From: a bacterium
Lineage (GTDB): Bacteria; Sumerlaeota; Sumerlaeia; MVZB01
Direction of reading: 5' to 3'
Length of the DNA: 40,340 nt
Assembly (NCBI GenBank): GCA_021372575.1
Contig: JAJFUE010000123.1
Coordinates: forward strand, 1 to 40,340
The stretch's first letter is position 1, and every line of letters starts with the position of its first letter. Both the position numbers and the translations under genes were made by a program. A model generated the notes under the pieces. That model searched no databases and was not told where the DNA came from. It was given only the letters and a program-made list of their open reading frames with translations. This document shows positions 12 to 27,461 of this stretch, in pieces.

Positions 12-2237
12 ATGTCTCTGGCATCAGGTACGGGCCTGATTTCGGGCATCGATGACAGTTCGCTGATCTCAAAGCTGATCCAGGCCGATTCGCAGCCGAT
101 CTACCTTGCCCAAAACAAGGAATCGAAGATCAAGACCAAGCAATCGGCGATGCAGGGGATCAACCGGTTGCTGCTCGAGTTCAAAACCAAGGTCGAGGCG
201 ATCGGCAAGCCTTCCAACTTCATCAAGATGAACGCCTCCAGCACCGACGCCAACATGCTGATGGCGAACGCCTCCACCGACGCCGTGGCCGGGACCTACA
301 CGGCACGCGTCAGGCAGCTCGCGCAGGCCGAACGGATCGCGTCGCAGGGCTATGCCACGATGGACAAGACCTCCATCGCCGAAACGAGCGGCTCGTTCAC
401 GTTCAATGTCGGCGGCGACACCGCCACGTCGATCGACGTGACCAGCGGGATGAGCCTGCAGGACCTGCGCGACGCCATCAACAACGCCGACGCCGGCGTG
501 CGCGCCAGCATCGTCAACGACGGCACCGCGACCAACCCCTACCGGCTCGTGCTGACCAGCTCCGAAACCGGCGCGTCCAACACGATCAACATCACCCGGA
601 ACGACACGACGGTCAATTTGCAGACCTCGACCATCGAGGCCGCGGCCGCCGCCGACGGCAACCAATTCGACGGCACCGTCACCAGCAGCGGAACCTATAC
701 CGGCACGAGCACGCGCAACACGGTCGTGCAGATCACGACCGCCGGCGACGTCGGCACGGCCAAATACAAGGTTTCACTCGACGGCGGCCTCACGTGGACC
801 GCCTCCGACGCCTTCACGACCAGCGCCACCGCGACCGACATCACAGGAACGGCGGCCGAGGGCATCCAGATCGCGTTCGGCGCCGGCACGCAGTCGTTCG
901 TCGTCGGCGACCGCTTCACCATCGACGCCTTCGCGCCGCAGTTGCAGAAGGCCCAGGACTCGATCATCGAGGTCGATGGCATCCAGGTCAGCCGCGACAA
1001 CAACACGTTCGAGGACGTGATCCCCGGCGTCACGCTCACGGCCAAGCAGGTCACGGCCACGGATGACGACCCCGTGACGATCACCGTTGCCAACCAGAAG
1101 GCCACCATCTCCGGCGCGGTCCAGGAATTCGTGACGGCCTACAACGCGCTGGTCCAGGAAATTTCGACGCAAACGGCTTACAACACGAAAACGCAGACCG
1201 CGGCGGCGCTGTTCGGCGACTCGGGGCTGCGCAACCTCGTCAGCAGCTTCCGCCAATCGATCACTCAGTCGGTCAAGGGCCTCTCCAGCAACAACTCCCT
1301 CAGCTCCGTCGGCATCACCTTCGGCAAGGACGGCAAGCTGTCGCTCGACCTGACCAAGCTCACCAAGGCGCTCGACAACGACAGCGACGCCGTGATGCGG
1401 CTGTTCGTCGAGTCGGGCAAGTCGGCGTATTCGACGGTCCAACTGAACACGACAACCAGCAAAACCCAGATCGGCACGTATAACGTCGTCGTCACGACCC
1501 CCGCCAGCCAGGCGACCGTGACCGGAACGCAAACGGTCGCCACGAGCGGCATCAGCGCGGCCGAAACCCTGACGTTCGCCTACGGCGAGGAGTCCATGAA
1601 CGTCACGCTTTCGGCCGGAATGACGCTCAGCCAGGTCATCACGAAGCTGAACGACCAGTTCGAAGCCAACGGCTACGACCTCGAGGCCACCGACGACGGC
1701 GGCAAGCTCAAGGTTCACACGCGCGAATACGGCGACGAGGAAAAGTTCTCGATGTCCTCCCCGATGGACGCGGCCGCCGCCGGGCAGCTCGGCATCGGGA
1801 CCACGAAGATCGACGCCGTCGGCGTCGATGTGGCCGGGACGATCGCCGGGGTCAAGGCCACGGGCAAGGGCCAGGTGCTGACATCGGCAAGCAGCGGCGC
1901 CTCGAGCGGGCTCGCGCTGACGATCACCGCCACGGCCCCACTGACGACCTCCTTCACCGTCAGCCGCGGCGTCGCGTGGGACGTCCTCAACCAGATCACG
2001 AACGCGACGGACAGCGACACGGGCCTGTTCTCGGTGCGCGACAAGAGCTACGACACCCAGATCGAGGACATCGAAAAACAGATCGAGACGCTACAGTCGC
2101 GGCTCGACACCGAGGAAACCAACCTCAATGCCACGTTCACGGCCTTGGAGCAGAAACTGGCCTCGCTCCAGCAGCAGGGCAACTCGCTGACGAGCCAGCT
2201 CTCGAGCCTGATTTCGACGACGAGCAGCAGTTCATAA
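12..2237 (+). CDS. fliD: Flagellar hook-associated protein 2 (filament cap) FliD
   Basis: FliD forms the cap at the tip of the growing flagellar filament and helps exported flagellin fold into place. The N-terminus has the FliD_N pattern (SGIDDSSLISKLIQ near residues 11-24, then a helix and the ASTDAVAGTYTARV segment near 88-101). A hook-IN-like stretch lies near residues 125-200. The last 75 residues form a heptad-rich coiled coil rich in Gln, Leu and Glu, as in FliD C-termini, ending in a Thr/Ser tail. At 741 residues it is long for the family (many are 450-500), with extra Thr/Ala-rich domains in the middle. The ATG at 12 has a purine-rich stretch (GGGCGGGAG) at the window edge. fliS follows 32 bp downstream, the usual fliD-fliS order. 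The upstream neighbour is outside the window. Confidence 0.95.
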   Translation: MSLASGTGLISGIDDSSLISKLIQADSQPIYLAQNKESKIKTKQSAMQGINRLLLEFKTKVEAIGKPSNFIKMNASSTDANMLMANASTDAVAGTYTARVRQLAQAERIASQGYATMDKTSIAETSGSFTFNVGGDTATSIDVTSGMSLQDLRDAINNADAGVRASIVNDGTATNPYRLVLTSSETGASNTINITRNDTTVNLQTSTIEAAAAADGNQFDGTVTSSGTYTGTSTRNTVVQITTAGDVGTAKYKVSLDGGLTWTASDAFTTSATATDITGTAAEGIQIAFGAGTQSFVVGDRFTIDAFAPQLQKAQDSIIEVDGIQVSRDNNTFEDVIPGVTLTAKQVTATDDDPVTITVANQKATISGAVQEFVTAYNALVQEISTQTAYNTKTQTAAALFGDSGLRNLVSSFRQSITQSVKGLSSNNSLSSVGITFGKDGKLSLDLTKLTKALDNDSDAVMRLFVESGKSAYSTVQLNTTTSKTQIGTYNVVVTTPASQATVTGTQTVATSGISAAETLTFAYGEESMNVTLSAGMTLSQVITKLNDQFEANGYDLEATDDGGKLKVHTREYGDEEKFSMSSPMDAAAAGQLGIGTTKIDAVGVDVAGTIAGVKATGKGQVLTSASSGASSGLALTITATAPLTTSFTVSRGVAWDVLNQITNATDSDTGLFSVRDKSYDTQIEDIEKQIETLQSRLDTEETNLNATFTALEQKLASLQQQGNSLTSQLSSLISTTSSSS

Positions 2238-2269
2238 TCAACTCATCGACCGCATAAGAGAGGAACACC

Positions 2270-2683
2270 ATGCGTCCGTACCAGATGTACCAGCAGGTCA
2301 AAATCACGACGGCCGATCCGTTGCAGATCGTGGTGCTGCTGTATGAGGGGGCGATCAAGAACCTGAACCAGTGGCTGATGCTGATCGACTCGGACATGGA
2401 GCTGGCGACGGCCAAGCTGGTGCGCACGCAGGAAATCATCAATTATTTGCGGACCGCGCTCGACCATGAGCAGGGCGGCGAAATCGCGTTCAACCTCGAG
2501 CGCCTTTACAACTACATGCGCGACCGCCTCAGCGAGGCCAACCTCGACCGCAGCAAGGCCAAGGTCCAGGAAGTGATCGGCCTCATGCAAACATTACTCG
2601 AGGGCTGGCACGGCATCAGCAACCGCCCGGCGCCGGTCAGCGACATGAACCCGACGGCCGAACCGGTGAGCGCGGTGGGGTGA
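2270..2683 (+). CDS. fliS: Flagellar export chaperone FliS
   Basis: FliS is a small cytoplasmic helical chaperone that binds the C-terminus of flagellin and stops it polymerising before export. The 137-residue protein starts MRPYQMYQQVKITTADPLQI and continues VVLLYEGAIKNLNQW, the family's N-terminal signature, followed by four helices. The length is normal. An AGAGAGG-type ribosome binding site lies about 8 bp before the ATG. It directly follows fliD and probably shares its transcript, which would end at the terminator just downstream. Confidence 0.95.
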   Translation: MRPYQMYQQVKITTADPLQIVVLLYEGAIKNLNQWLMLIDSDMELATAKLVRTQEIINYLRTALDHEQGGEIAFNLERLYNYMRDRLSEANLDRSKAKVQEVIGLMQTLLEGWHGISNRPAPVSDMNPTAEPVSAVG

Positions 2684-2686
2684 TGG

Positions 2687-2740
<54 letters not shown>

Positions 2741-2741
2741 G

Positions 2742-2776
2742 GGGGCGGTCCGGGTTGGGCCGCCCCTCGTTTTTTT
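2742..2776 (+). terminator. Rho-independent terminator of fliD-fliS
   Basis: GGGGCGGTCC (2742-2751) pairs with GGGCCGCCCC (2757-2766) around the loop GGGTT, with one G-U pair. TCG and seven T residues follow (2767-2776). This is a canonical intrinsic terminator for the plus strand. It lies between fliS and the converging pseudopilin gene. Confidence 0.85.
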
Positions 2777-2823
2777 GTACGCGGTGGGGTGTTCTGCCGG
2801 CCCTTCTTTGGGCCAGTTCCCGG

Positions 2824-3426
2824 TCAGCTTGTCGGATTGCGCATGATGTTGCCGTCGCTGATCGTGCCGTTGGTGGGGTCGTAGGCGATCATCGGGTTCC
2901 ATGAGCGGTCGGGGCCGATGCACAGGACGCGCCACGGGCCGATGCGCTCGAGCGCACGCTGCGCGGGGCCGTATTTGCCCTGCAGCACCGGATACGCCGC
3001 GGCTTTCTCCCCCAGCTCCGCGATATTTTCGTAACTGAACCGCCGCCAGATTGTGTCGGGGAAATCCCCGCTGCGCGCGATGTCGCCGCCGAACGGACAC
3101 CGCAGGTCGGCCGTGGCGAGGTAGGAGACCGGCGTGCTGAGCGAGTCGGGAACATACCACCACTTGAGGTCGCTGCCGGCCAGGGGCATCACGCCGCCGG
3201 CAAATCCGGGAGAAATCATTGTCGGGTAGGCGTTGAAATCGATGTGGTAGGACTCGATCGCGGCGGCGACCGCGCGCAGGTCGGCCTGCGCCCGGGAAAC
3301 GCGCGCGCGCATTTGCGCCTCGAGCATGTTGGGAACGGCGATGGCCGCCAGGATCGCGATGATCGCGACGACGATAAGGAGTTCGATGAGGGTGAAGGCC
3401 GAATGAATGGGTCTTATCTGTCCCAT
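2824..3426 (-). CDS. Type II/IV pseudopilin-like protein with prepilin N-terminus
   Basis: The protein begins with a short basic leader, then AFTLIELLIVVAIIAILA, the class III prepilin signal and hydrophobic spine, followed by VPNMLEAQMRARVSRA. Prepilin peptidase would cut before Phe; residue -1 is Ala rather than the usual Gly. The C-terminal part holds YDPTNGTISDGNI, which recurs in the pseudopilin at 6255-6932. At 200 residues it fits a minor pseudopilin or secreted pilin-like protein anchored in the inner membrane. The start ATG lies 5 bp after the stop of the upstream HEAT-like gene, with AGAGAAGGGG inside that gene's end, so the two genes are probably co-translated. Its pilus or secretion system is not in the window. 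Confidence 0.85.
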   Translation of the reverse strand: MGQIRPIHSAFTLIELLIVVAIIAILAAIAVPNMLEAQMRARVSRAQADLRAVAAAIESYHIDFNAYPTMISPGFAGGVMPLAGSDLKWWYVPDSLSTPVSYLATADLRCPFGGDIARSGDFPDTIWRRFSYENIAELGEKAAAYPVLQGKYGPAQRALERIGPWRVLCIGPDRSWNPMIAYDPTNGTISDGNIMRNPTS

Positions 3427-9916: not shown

Positions 9917-10160
9917 TACTACTATCCGTCAGAATCTTGTTTTCCTGACAAGATTTTTGAACAGGAGGCAACGGAGGTAACAGAGATTTCGGCCAAAAGA
10001 AATTACTCCGTTTCCTCCGTTTCCTCCTGTTCAATTCTTCAGTTCAGAAATATTCTCTGCCTCTCTGCCAAACTCTGCTTCTCTGCGACAAAAATCTTTT
10101 TCGTGTTTTTTCGTGCTCTTCTTTCGTGTGTTTCGTGTTTGCATTTTTGGGTTGCGGCTC
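9917..10160. repeat. 244-bp dispersed repeat, copy A
   Basis: This stretch matches 27193-27435 over its full length with about 12 differences by eye. Inside it is a hairpin: GAACAGGAGGCAACGGAGG (9959-9977) pairs with CCTCCGTTTCCTCCTGTTC (10015-10033). A run of CTCTGC units and TTTCGTGTTT units follows. It fills most of the 358-bp gap between the converging protease and glycosyltransferase genes. The remaining part of the gap (9866-9916, GATTGAACGGATTGAACGG) is also repetitive. No gene is present. Confidence 0.9.
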
Positions 10161-10217
10161 CGCTGCGCCAAGTTCATCGGTTCAAGTCGTGCCATTCGCG
10201 CGCGGATTTTTGAATTT

Positions 10218-11827: not shown

Positions 11828-12601
11828 ATGGGGATCGATCCGTGGGATTTGACCTCGACGAACCTGGGCCGCCTGCAGGGGCAGAAGTTTGAAGTCGCCG
11901 TGCTGCCGACCGGCGCGATCGAGGCGCACAACCGGCACCTGCCGGAGGGTCAGGATTTCCGGCACACCACATATGTGGCGCGGACGAGTTGCGAAATGGC
12001 GTGGCGGCGCTCGCCGAGCGTGATCTGCCTGCCGGCGCTGCCGTACGGCGTCGATTGCAATCTGCTCGATTTCCCGCTGACGATCCACGTCTCGCAGGCG
12101 GCGCTCGACGCCATGATTCGGGACATCGTGGTCTCGCTCCGGCGGCATGGGATCAGGAAAGTGGTTATTGTGAATGGCCATGGGGGCAACGATTTCACGC
12201 CACTGATTCGCCAGATCCAGTGCGACATGGACGTGCACGTGTTCGTCGTGAACTGGTGGCTTGTCGGCATGGACCGCTACGGCGAAATTTTTGAAAAGCC
12301 CGACGATCACGCCGGCGAATGGGAAACCTCCGTCGCGCTGGCGCTTTATCCTGATCTGGTCGAAATGGAGCGTGCGGGCCACGGCATTCCCACACCGTTC
12401 AGGCTTGAAGGATTGCGCAAAGGCTGGGCGCACACGAGCCGCCGTTTCTCGCGCATGATCGACCACTGCGCCGCCGGCGACCCCTCGCGCGCCACCGCCG
12501 AAAAAGGGCGCAAATATTTGGAATTGGTATGCGGAAGGATCAGTGATTTTTTAGTCGAGCTGGCCGAAGCGAAAATCGACGAAACATTCCCGCAGGTTTA
12601 G
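11828..12601 (+). CDS. Creatininase-family metal-dependent amidohydrolase
   Basis: The family hydrolyses cyclic amides and amides (creatinine, formamidopyrimidines, mycofactocin precursor) using two metal ions. Signature motifs in this 257-residue protein are PTGAIEAHNRHLPEGQD (residues 28-43, metal ligands Glu32, His34 and Asp43), VNGHGGND in the middle, and DDHAGEWETS with the catalytic/metal Glu. The start ATG 11828 has AAGGGGA 9 bp upstream; the frame continues 28 codons further up without family similarity. The last 47 codons recur, diverged, at 12934-13083 beyond a small AT-rich gene, so this locus once held two copies. The true substrate is unknown. Confidence 0.9.
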   Translation: MGIDPWDLTSTNLGRLQGQKFEVAVLPTGAIEAHNRHLPEGQDFRHTTYVARTSCEMAWRRSPSVICLPALPYGVDCNLLDFPLTIHVSQAALDAMIRDIVVSLRRHGIRKVVIVNGHGGNDFTPLIRQIQCDMDVHVFVVNWWLVGMDRYGEIFEKPDDHAGEWETSVALALYPDLVEMERAGHGIPTPFRLEGLRKGWAHTSRRFSRMIDHCAAGDPSRATAEKGRKYLELVCGRISDFLVELAEAKIDETFPQV

Positions 12602-12655
12602 AATATGATACGTTCGATTTATGTTTGATATACATTTCATCAGATGGAGAGAAAA

Positions 12656-12931
12656 ATGGAATGTCCGTTTTGCCACCACAGAATCGGTTATTTTAGCAAG
12701 GCGGTGAATAGTTTGAACCAACGCGCCAGAAAGTGCCCTGCTTGCGGGAAAGCATTCATACTGAAATTGAATAAAAAGAAATACTGGGCGTTTGCGATTC
12801 CTCTGCTGATTGTTGCACTCACGGCTTTGCAGTTATTGCCGCCACATTGGTTAAACCTTCCGGTTGCCGTGGGCATCGTGGTTGGGATTTCCATGTTCTT
12901 TTCACTTAAACCCATCGAACCCGAGGGTTAA
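12656..12931 (+). CDS. Small zinc-ribbon membrane protein, AT-rich
   Basis: The 91-residue protein starts MECPFCHHRIGYF and has a second pair of Cys in CPACGKAF, giving a CxxC-x~23-CxxC zinc ribbon. A basic segment (LKLNKKK) and two hydrophobic helices follow (YWAFAIPLLIVALTALQLL and LPVAVGIVVGISMFFSL). It is probably an inner-membrane protein with a cytoplasmic zinc ribbon. GGAGA lies 5 bp before ATG 12656; the in-frame ATG at 12644 has none. Base composition is clearly lower in GC than its neighbours. It sits exactly between the creatininase gene and a detached second copy of that gene's tail, which suggests arrival by insertion or recombination. Function unknown. Confidence 0.7.
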   Translation: MECPFCHHRIGYFSKAVNSLNQRARKCPACGKAFILKLNKKKYWAFAIPLLIVALTALQLLPPHWLNLPVAVGIVVGISMFFSLKPIEPEG

Positions 12932-12933
12932 TT

Positions 12934-13083
12934 CTGGACCACTGCGCCGCCGGCGATCCGTCGCGCGCAAGCGCGGAAAAGGGAAGGCAATACCTGGAGC
13001 TGGTTTGCGGCCGGATCAGCAAATTTCTAGTCGATCTTGCCTCAGCCGAAATCGACGACACGTTTCCGCAGCAAGCGGGCTGA
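12934..13083 (+). pseudogene. Remnant 3-prime end of a second creatininase-family gene
   Basis: Fifty in-frame codons ending in TGA encode LDHCAAGDPSRASAEKGRQY and continue to a DDTFPQQAG ending. They match the last 47 codons of the creatininase at 11828-12601 at 38 of 47 residues. About 20 of the conserved residues use different codons, so the two copies diverged while both were translated. No start codon or upstream domain is present; the frame begins right after the stop of the zinc-ribbon gene. This is a truncated paralogue, not a duplication made during recent assembly. Confidence 0.85.
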
Positions 13084-13089
13084 TGGGGT

Positions 13090-13515
13090 TCAGGCCTTGT
13101 GCCTGCTTGCCCGAATCAGCACGATCTCGAACGGCCAATCGATTCGCGCCCAGGCCTGTTCCGCCGTATAGACAACGATCGGAATTCCCGTCATGCGGCA
13201 GTAGTGCGCGAGGGCAAGGCAAGCCCGATCGCCGAGCGACGCGCCGATTTTCCTGGTCCGCGCCCGCAGGTCGGCGGCGGTGCGCGTGTGGTCCCAATCG
13301 AATTCGAGAACTTTCAAGCCCAGCTCGTTCACCGCGAGTTCGGCTTCCTTGATGGGGACGCCATGGTCGCATAGTTTGCCGAGGACCTCGCATATATTGA
13401 CGGTTGAAACCCAGCATTGGCCGCCGTCGAGCGCGGCTTCGACCAATTCATGGCCTTTTTCCCGCTGGAGGAAGGCAAGGATCGCGGAGGCGTCGAGGAT
13501 CGAGAGATTATTCAT
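13090..13515 (-). CDS. PIN-domain ribonuclease toxin, VapC-like
   Basis: Type II toxin that cleaves RNA with a Mg-dependent PIN active site. Acidic residues fit the fold: Asp8 in ILDASAILA, Glu43 in NICEVLGKL, Asp96 in SLGDRACLALA, and Glu119 in VYTAEQAW, where many relatives have Asp. Length 141 residues is normal. Its ATG overlaps the end of the antitoxin gene by 8 bp (ATGAATAA), giving translational coupling in the usual antitoxin-then-toxin order. The 3-prime end faces the creatininase remnant 6 bp away. Confidence 0.9.
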   Translation of the reverse strand: MNNLSILDASAILAFLQREKGHELVEAALDGGQCWVSTVNICEVLGKLCDHGVPIKEAELAVNELGLKVLEFDWDHTRTAADLRARTRKIGASLGDRACLALAHYCRMTGIPIVVYTAEQAWARIDWPFEIVLIRASRHKA

Positions 13516-13762
13516 GCCGGGCCTCCGCCTTCCTTTCGGCCAACAGTTCCTTGCTGAGGCTCACGCCCGGCTTGATGTATTTCTGGATTCTTTCCTGGGC
13601 TTTCCGGCGCGCGGCGCGAGCGTTCATGAGCGTGGCGTGATCATTTTCAAGCGTCAGGATCACTTCGTCCCCGATGTCGATCCCGAGGCGTTCGCGAACG
13701 GCCGCCGGGATGACGATGCGCCCGCCCTCGGCGACTTTCAGGATGGTGCGATTGACATCCAT
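13508..13762 (-). CDS. AbrB/SpoVT-type antitoxin, VapB-like
   Basis: The 84-residue protein has the swapped-hairpin AbrB DNA-binding domain: MDVNRTILKVAEGGRIVIPA then VRERLGIDIGDEVILTLEND. A basic C-terminal arm (KAQERIQKYIKPGVSL) would wrap the toxin. AAGGAGA sits 7 bp before ATG 13762, which decides this start over an in-frame ATG at 13786. It likely represses its own promoter together with the toxin at 13090-13515. The promoter would lie in 13763-13890, which has no other gene. Confidence 0.9.
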   Translation of the reverse strand: MDVNRTILKVAEGGRIVIPAAVRERLGIDIGDEVILTLENDHATLMNARAARRKAQERIQKYIKPGVSLSKELLAERKAEARHE

Positions 13763-13891
13763 GACATTTCTCCTTGAGTGTGCCATCTATTTCGATATTG
13801 CCATAAAAAGCACAAAATGGCAACAACGCAGTTCAGCCCCAGAGTTTTGGCGTGCGCAAGCCGATTTCAATTGAAAGGCGTGAGCACCTGA

Positions 13892-15867: not shown

Positions 15868-15880
15868 ACGAATACATATT

Positions 15881-26719: not shown

Positions 26720-26753
26720 GTAACAAGAGAGTTTCAACCACGGCGGGATGCCC

Positions 26754-27083
26754 ATGGATAATCCTTTTTCAAATTATGTAATGGCAAATCCTGTTGGTGT
26801 TATGATTGTCATCATAGTTTCAGGAATATTCGCATGGCTTTGGTGTTTTCTTGGGTTCCATATCTTCTATCGACGGGTATTGGTTTTATCTATTCCATTG
26901 ATTTTATCGTATTATGCTTATTGGATTCCAATTGAGAATAGTGGCTCTACCGATCCAGAGTATCTTGGATATGCATTTATATTGATTCCGTTCATGGCCT
27001 ATCTTGGCTATGCATCCTCAGGAATTGCAATTTGGATACATAGAATAGTGTTTTCAAAAAGAAATATCCCGGTGGATAAGTGA
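26754..27083 (+). CDS. Small AT-rich membrane protein, unknown
   Basis: I do not recognise a family. The 109-residue product has three hydrophobic segments (VGVMIVIIVSGIFAWLWCFL, VLVLSIPLILSYYAYWI, LIPFMAYLGYASSGIAIWI) and a basic C-terminus. Codon use and composition are very different from its neighbours: AT-ending codons dominate and GC is roughly 40 percent against 60-65 percent around it, suggesting recent transfer. ATG 26748 (two codons upstream) is also possible; GGCGGG lies 6 bp before 26754. It is flanked by a TAG hairpin repeat and repeat copy B. Confidence 0.6.
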   Translation: MDNPFSNYVMANPVGVMIVIIVSGIFAWLWCFLGFHIFYRRVLVLSIPLILSYYAYWIPIENSGSTDPEYLGYAFILIPFMAYLGYASSGIAIWIHRIVFSKRNIPVDK

Positions 27084-27194: not shown

Positions 27195-27435
27195 CTACTA
27201 TCCGTCAGAATCTTGTTTTCCTGACAAGATTCTTGAACAGGAGGCAACGGAGGTAACAGAGATTTCAGCCAATAGAAATTACTCCGTTTCCTCTGTTTCC
27301 TCCTGTTCAATTCTTCAGTTCAGAAATATTCTCTGCTTCTCTGCCCAACTCTGCATCTCTGCGACAAAATCTTTTTTGTGTTTTTTCGTGATCTTCTTTC
27401 GTGTGTTTCGTGTTTGCACTTTTTGGTTGCGGCTC
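27193..27435. repeat. 244-bp dispersed repeat, copy B
   Basis: Same orientation as copy A (9917-10160), with about 12 substitutions and one single-base gap by eye. It too lies between converging genes. With the neighbouring hairpin it accounts for the 27084-27461 gap; no gene is seen. Confidence 0.9.
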
Positions 27436-27461
27436 GACCGCGCTCAGTTTTCCGTGGTTGA

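Follow-up and report, generated by a model that had tools for sequence, protein, structure and literature searches.

A second, orphaned end of a creatininase-family gene behind a small AT-rich gene in a Sumerlaeota genome: probable C-terminal displacement

Introduction

How does the end of a metabolic gene come to stand on both sides of a small AT-rich gene? The question is raised by a creatininase-family gene in the window, by which is meant the whole 40,340-nucleotide stretch analyzed here (contig C63 in full; the draft genome comprises 4.63 Mb in 214 contigs). The final 46 codons of this gene (12461-12601, here called tail A) are present again at 12937-13083 (tail B), and a zinc-ribbon gene lies between the two (Table 1). 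An earlier note on this DNA had offered two answers, either that a tandem paralogue had lost its front half or that an element had brought a replacement tail with it. Both are weighed below, together with an origin in assembly and with a rearrangement known mainly from toxin genes, here apparently met in unusual hosts: a metabolic gene and, elsewhere in the same genome, ligA.

Table 1. Features of the creatininase locus and its flank, with the second locus found in the same genome
Feature	Position	Strand	Basis
Creatininase-family gene (PF02633), front part, considered native; catalytic region of the family; G+C 62%	11828..12460	+	Pfam Creatininase, E=5.1e-55
Shared exact 20-nt run, probable crossover region	12461..12480	+	same letters at 12937-12956
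Tail A, attached, completes the gene; judged imported from ~12481-12512 on	12461..12601	+	G+C 45% after codon 13
Low-G+C segment (maximum likelihood): most of tail A and the small gene, up to the junction	12512..12935		change-point fit, log-likelihood gain 23
Cargo gene, 91 codons, CPxC-CPxC zinc ribbon and two hydrophobic helices, TIGR04104-like	12656..12931	+	TIGR04104, 4.5e-6
Junction TTCTG, five bases from cargo stop codon to tail B, non-homologous	12932..12936		sequence
Tail B, orphan of 48 codons, taken to be the native 3' end after displacement	12937..13083	+	no ATG/GTG/TTG start in frame
PIN-domain (VapC-type) protein, flank	13090..13515	-	PF01850, 1.7e-13
AbrB/MazE-type antitoxin partner, flank	13508..13786	-	PF04014, 2e-9; TIGR01439
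ligA with AT-rich 3' part, BRCT gene and orphan native ligA tail	L135 (G000:C182) 154-3125		survey

A gene end present twice

The creatininase-family gene occupies 11828-12601, with the family domain matched over residues 7-241; its nearest solved structure is 3lub (3.9e-40), and its front is 78% identical to that of L006, a relative from the same family and another genus. The direct repeat itself covers 12461-12595 and 12937-13071, with a spacing of 476 and 78% identity over 135 nt. A search of the organism's own genome with the tail returned tail B at E=5.5e-22 and, beyond it, no match above chance; likewise, no further copies of the 476-bp unit were found in that genome. Homology to creatininase begins at 12937 and not, as had been supposed, at 12934: the CTG at 12934-12936 is non-homologous, and no creatininase homology lies upstream of 12937. 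The reading frame of tail B is backed by homologues, and it holds no in-frame ATG, GTG or TTG. The 476-bp unit is flanked by a gene for a membrane protein and by a PIN/AbrB pair; the pair, a PIN toxin with an AbrB/MazE-type antitoxin (13090-13786, minus strand), opens 7 nt past the orphan tail.

The repeat opens with an exact 20-mer, GACCACTGCGCCGCCGGCGA, at 12461 and 12937, which is the longest exact repeat. With three mismatches allowed, 0.03 chance matches to it would be expected in the window. Among 34 pairs of relatives whose tails are otherwise comparably similar, not one matches at all 20 positions; a crossover within the run would produce such an identity. Past the run, the two tails differ at about 60% of conserved codons. 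The codon just before the repeat is Ile (ATC, 12458-12460), a place held by Asn, ahead of Asp-His-Cys, in nearly all of the 37 relatives compared.

Over the 45 aligned codons, 18 are identical, 20 carry synonymous and 7 carry non-synonymous changes, so that the 38 conserved residues and about 20 synonymous changes reported earlier are exact over this length. The corresponding values (dS ~1.5, dN ~0.10, dN/dS ~0.07) bear out the claim that this is not a fresh duplication. Because a dead, drifting fragment would not yield a dN/dS of ~0.07, a dS of ~1.5 with so low a dN indicates that both tails belonged to working genes for most of their divergence. A high dS and a low dN/dS also suit an old pair of paralogues, as would be expected if two creatininase genes had long stood in tandem with the small gene between them and a deletion with its endpoint directly behind that gene had removed the front of the second. 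Deletion alone would suffice for such a history. It leaves unexplained why the exact 20-nt identity sits at the very edge of the repeat.

The small gene between the tails

The small gene can be read as 91 codons from an ATG at 12656, with an SD-like GGAGAG close upstream, or as 95 codons from 12644. Its product has two CPxC pairs followed by two hydrophobic stretches, and it is most likely a small membrane-anchored zinc-ribbon protein. The match to the NCBIfam family TIGR04104 ("cxxc_20_cxxc putative zinc finger") is near full-length, with residues 6-84 aligned to positions 2-82 of the 93 in the model; at 26.9 bits it lies below the family cut-off of 45. No relative of the gene was found among 38 other genomes of the class, nor among viral contigs, plasmids and phages, and elsewhere in the class TIGR04104 gives weak matches alone. 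The interval 12602-12936 has 43.6% G+C against 60.9% for the window; the gene is AT-rich, as the earlier note described.

Base composition of the two tails

Composition offers a way to ask which of the two ends is the newcomer. Within 11831-13789, the best-fitting low-G+C segment is 12512-12935, which opens inside tail A and closes one base before the second copy of the repeat. When the G+C of the tail after codon 13 is set against the front of the same gene, 36 homologues give a mean difference of -0.040 (sd 0.047, lowest -0.141); tail A, at -0.168, falls outside this range, whereas tail B, at -0.097, falls inside it. The 45% G+C of tail A after codon 13 is in the lowest 1% of 33-codon gene stretches in the window. 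In base composition tail A departs from the rest of its gene and matches the small gene; tail B does neither. A codon-usage test of the tails was weak (tail A in the lowest 6%, tail B in the lowest 10%), and the argument from composition therefore leans on G+C and the homologues. Gene ends in this window can be AT-rich on their own.

The change in composition lies past the 20-nt run, a position consistent with a crossover inside the run, because both parents would have been identical there. A truncated paralogue offers no account of why most of tail A should share the low G+C of the small gene.

Several other features of the window may be recorded here. Two similar AT-rich intergenic repeats occur at about 9930-10180 and 27200-27440 (GGAGGCAACGGAGGTAACAGAGATTTC...CTCCGTTTCCTCC...), and a shorter palindromic repeat, ACCACAGAGACACGGAGGCACGGAG, is present near 15880. 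An AT-rich ORF of 111 codons for a membrane protein (26748-27083) follows a histidine-kinase-like gene; no orphan tail of the latter was seen at 26748-27083.

Relatives and phylogeny of the creatininase family

Some 37 members of the creatininase subfamily were compared, all from outside the genus; the same-class relatives are metagenome-assembled genomes (MAGs) of Sumerlaeota/Sumerlaeia. The same arrangement was found in none of them: neither a second tail nor the adjoining small gene is present in any of the 37, and in L006, the closest relative, the region downstream lacks both the small gene and the PIN pair. A tandem pair of full-length creatininase genes is likewise absent from all 37, which counts against the tandem-paralogue history. 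No empty site and no donor were found for the creatininase locus.

The tails themselves are less informative. Protein identity to L006 is 33/46 for tail A and 32/46 for tail B. In the family tree the two tails are weakly sister (91/66), as paralogues would be, and a tree of the 46-residue tails has little resolution. Nearest-relative identity and phylogeny thus appear not to separate a native from a foreign tail at this gene. The branch of tail B is long (0.42, against 0 for tail A), and together with the missing start codon this is as expected of a disused end.

A second case at ligA

A survey for genes whose C-terminal end alone recurs nearby covered 2.17 Mb (47%) of the same genome and yielded two clean cases, the creatininase locus and ligA (L135, on contig C182). 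Applied to 0.76 Mb of loci from other taxa, the scan produced no clean case, but the two rates do not differ significantly. Other matches were set aside on inspection: a flagellar C-terminal motif (L168), full paralogues (L156 and L193), repeats or non-coding frames (L149, L167, L169, L179, L181, L185 and L188), and one match not reproduced under stricter filtering (L133). Two further kinds of repetition were noted in passing, namely a row of roughly five long ORFs, paralogous and in tandem (530-830 codons, 48-70% identical), at 8308-19055 of L124 (G000:C170:80001-100000) and many short tandem repeats of the ACGAGC/TACGAT type across G000, where the commonest 16-mer occurs more than 100 times in 2.2 Mb.

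The ligA gene (L135:154-2349) has a GC-rich front and is AT-rich from about 1119 onward. It is followed by an AT-rich BRCT gene of 216 codons (2366-3016), with full-length relatives in phages and plasmids (27-46% identity) and none in near relatives of the host, and homology to a second ligA tail then begins at 3021, past the BRCT stop codon. This orphan tail is 84% identical to ligA of G003 and 78% to that of G001, the nearest order and family members, against 60% to the host's own ligA end. Judged by these search identities, it is the orphan that is native, and the end now attached to ligA is foreign. The locus provides direct evidence that such an event occurred in this genome, and it is mainly for this reason that displacement is preferred at the creatininase gene also. 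At both loci the attached 3' end and the downstream gene share a foreign composition.

In both cases the joint falls 4-5 nt past the stop codon of the cargo gene. It is not obviously a truncation artifact, because the cargo lengths look natural: the creatininase cargo aligns along TIGR04104, and the phage PG1 homologue stops a few residues past the aligned end. The position of the joint in the two cases may be due to chance.

Weighing the explanations

With the ligA locus in hand, the tandem-paralogue history has also to account for the same layout there, where the orphan is the native tail, and it does not. We regard it as unlikely for the creatininase gene, and a replacement tail is favored over it. 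Of the first answer in the earlier note, the weak sister grouping of the tails speaks in its favor and the missing tandem pair against it; of the second, the replacement tail is retained, given the AT-rich segment, the G+C drop in tail A and the ligA case, and the classical integrative element is not.

That element would be the remnant or miniature of a site-specific integrative element, with the 20-nt run as att core, a replacement 3' end like those of e14 and phage 21 at icd, and all but one cargo gene lost. In its favor, the order front, core, new tail, cargo, core, old tail corresponds exactly to attL...attR, the core is exact while the tails are homologous and diverged, and att-like direct repeats (the 20-mer at 12461 and 12937) flank the insert, one of them restoring the gene. 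Tail-replacing prophages are kilobases long and carry an integrase; those at icd have a replaced 3' end with synonymous differences flanking the insert, a similar outcome reached here with no integrase in view. The present unit is only 476 bp with a single ORF of 91-95 codons, and no tyrosine or serine recombinase/integrase was found in it or in its immediate flanks. Moreover, the exact 20-mer was not found in the viral contig collection, viral contigs, phages and plasmids gave no match to the small gene, and the AT-rich part of ligA starts about 380 codons before the orphan does, which exchange at an att site would not produce. An integrative origin is accordingly rated as distinctly improbable.

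An artificial join of strains co-occurring in the metagenome has also to be considered. The assembly is a draft in 214 contigs, its close relatives in public collections are MAGs, and the left joint lies in a conserved block where composition shifts. The right joint, however, has no k-mer common to the parts, no exact repeat exceeds 20 nt, and the same kind of structure, with both genes intact, is present on a second contig. We consider an assembly chimera very hard to credit.

How the arrangement may have arisen

The explanation that we hold to be probable, if by no means secure, is that the creatininase gene underwent C-terminal displacement, in which a homologous tail arrived together with a downstream gene and the native tail was left stranded. 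An intact gene with a new 3' end, followed on the same strand by its old 3' end as an orphan, is what the locus presents. At the creatininase gene we infer the direction of the exchange (tail A being foreign), the donor and the route of recombination. The source would be DNA of an AT-richer relative that carried its own creatininase gene end with the zinc-ribbon membrane gene behind it. On one side, the conserved GACCACTGCGCCGCCGGCGA block would have allowed this DNA to recombine with the resident gene; on the other, the DNA would have been joined without homology. The product would comprise the resident front fused to the incoming tail as an intact gene, the cargo gene, and the resident tail as a start-less, untranslated remnant.

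Two routes can be envisioned: a small circle integrated by a single crossover, or a linear piece captured by homology-facilitated illegitimate recombination (HFIR). At the creatininase gene crossover and joint would coincide within the gene, and either route would fit. For ligA the linear route would fit better: counted from the first residue of the orphan, the AT-rich part sets in about 380 codons further upstream.

Some observations sit uneasily with displacement. An exact match of 20 nt is short for a RecA-dependent crossover, and random joining does not predict that both junctions fall 4-5 nt past a cargo stop codon. The weak sister grouping of the tails, their equal identity to L006 and the AT-richness of gene ends by themselves also count against it. 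One might propose instead a lineage with dedicated uptake of "tail plus gene" cassettes, each made of a 3' end and one cargo gene with the stop codon at the joint, by which the resident gene would be restored and its old tail stranded, and conserved genes would be the landing pads, with neither integrase nor integron sites involved; this seems highly improbable.

Relation to known systems

Descriptions of C-terminal displacement have come from polymorphic toxins, in which selection for new toxin tips drives it. The rearrangement was given its name at rhs genes, where the incoming tips are GC-poor and most orphan tips have no start codon; a circular intermediate that integrates by homology was proposed (Jackson et al. 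2009, PMC2935791). The creatininase locus would share with Rhs (and likewise mafB) the joining of an incoming 3' end and its downstream gene to a resident gene, a GC-poor incoming part, and an old 3' end left behind downstream, silent and mostly start-less. Rhs tips, however, are variable domains without homology to one another; they come with core repeats at their flanks and form long arrays. In the present case the two tails share homology (84%), the gene affected codes for a metabolic enzyme, no immunity gene is carried along, and there is one orphan. The host genes in this genome are a creatininase-family gene and ligA, both with homologous tails; the non-homologous tips and immunity gene that mark a polymorphic toxin are not among the parts.

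Other systems offer partial parallels. At T6SS effector-immunity loci of Vibrio cholerae, a homologous anchor on one side and an illegitimate joint on the other have been proposed (PMC5361080), and there too an old 3' end or immunity gene remains; the effector function is swapped in that case, whereas the enzyme here retains a homologous end. In Escherichia coli, a partial duplication of the homologous segment flanking foreign DNA was seen in 56 of 60 clones, with lengths of 109-950 bp in the sequenced ones; these were attributed to a single crossover with a circle missing part of the homology, true HFIR being rarer (PMC3240628). That study used a laboratory plasmid with 1 kb of identical homology, in contrast to about 20-40 nt of high identity here.

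Implications

Signs of displacement at two loci of a single Sumerlaeota genome, one of them a metabolic gene and the other ligA, suggest that recombination of this one-sided kind may serve generally to bring individual foreign genes in behind conserved ones, which are kept. They further suggest that past gene gain can be read from orphan tails, much as from fossils. Orphan gene tails combined with a step in composition would make a simple scan of many genomes for the frequency with which genes arrive in this way.
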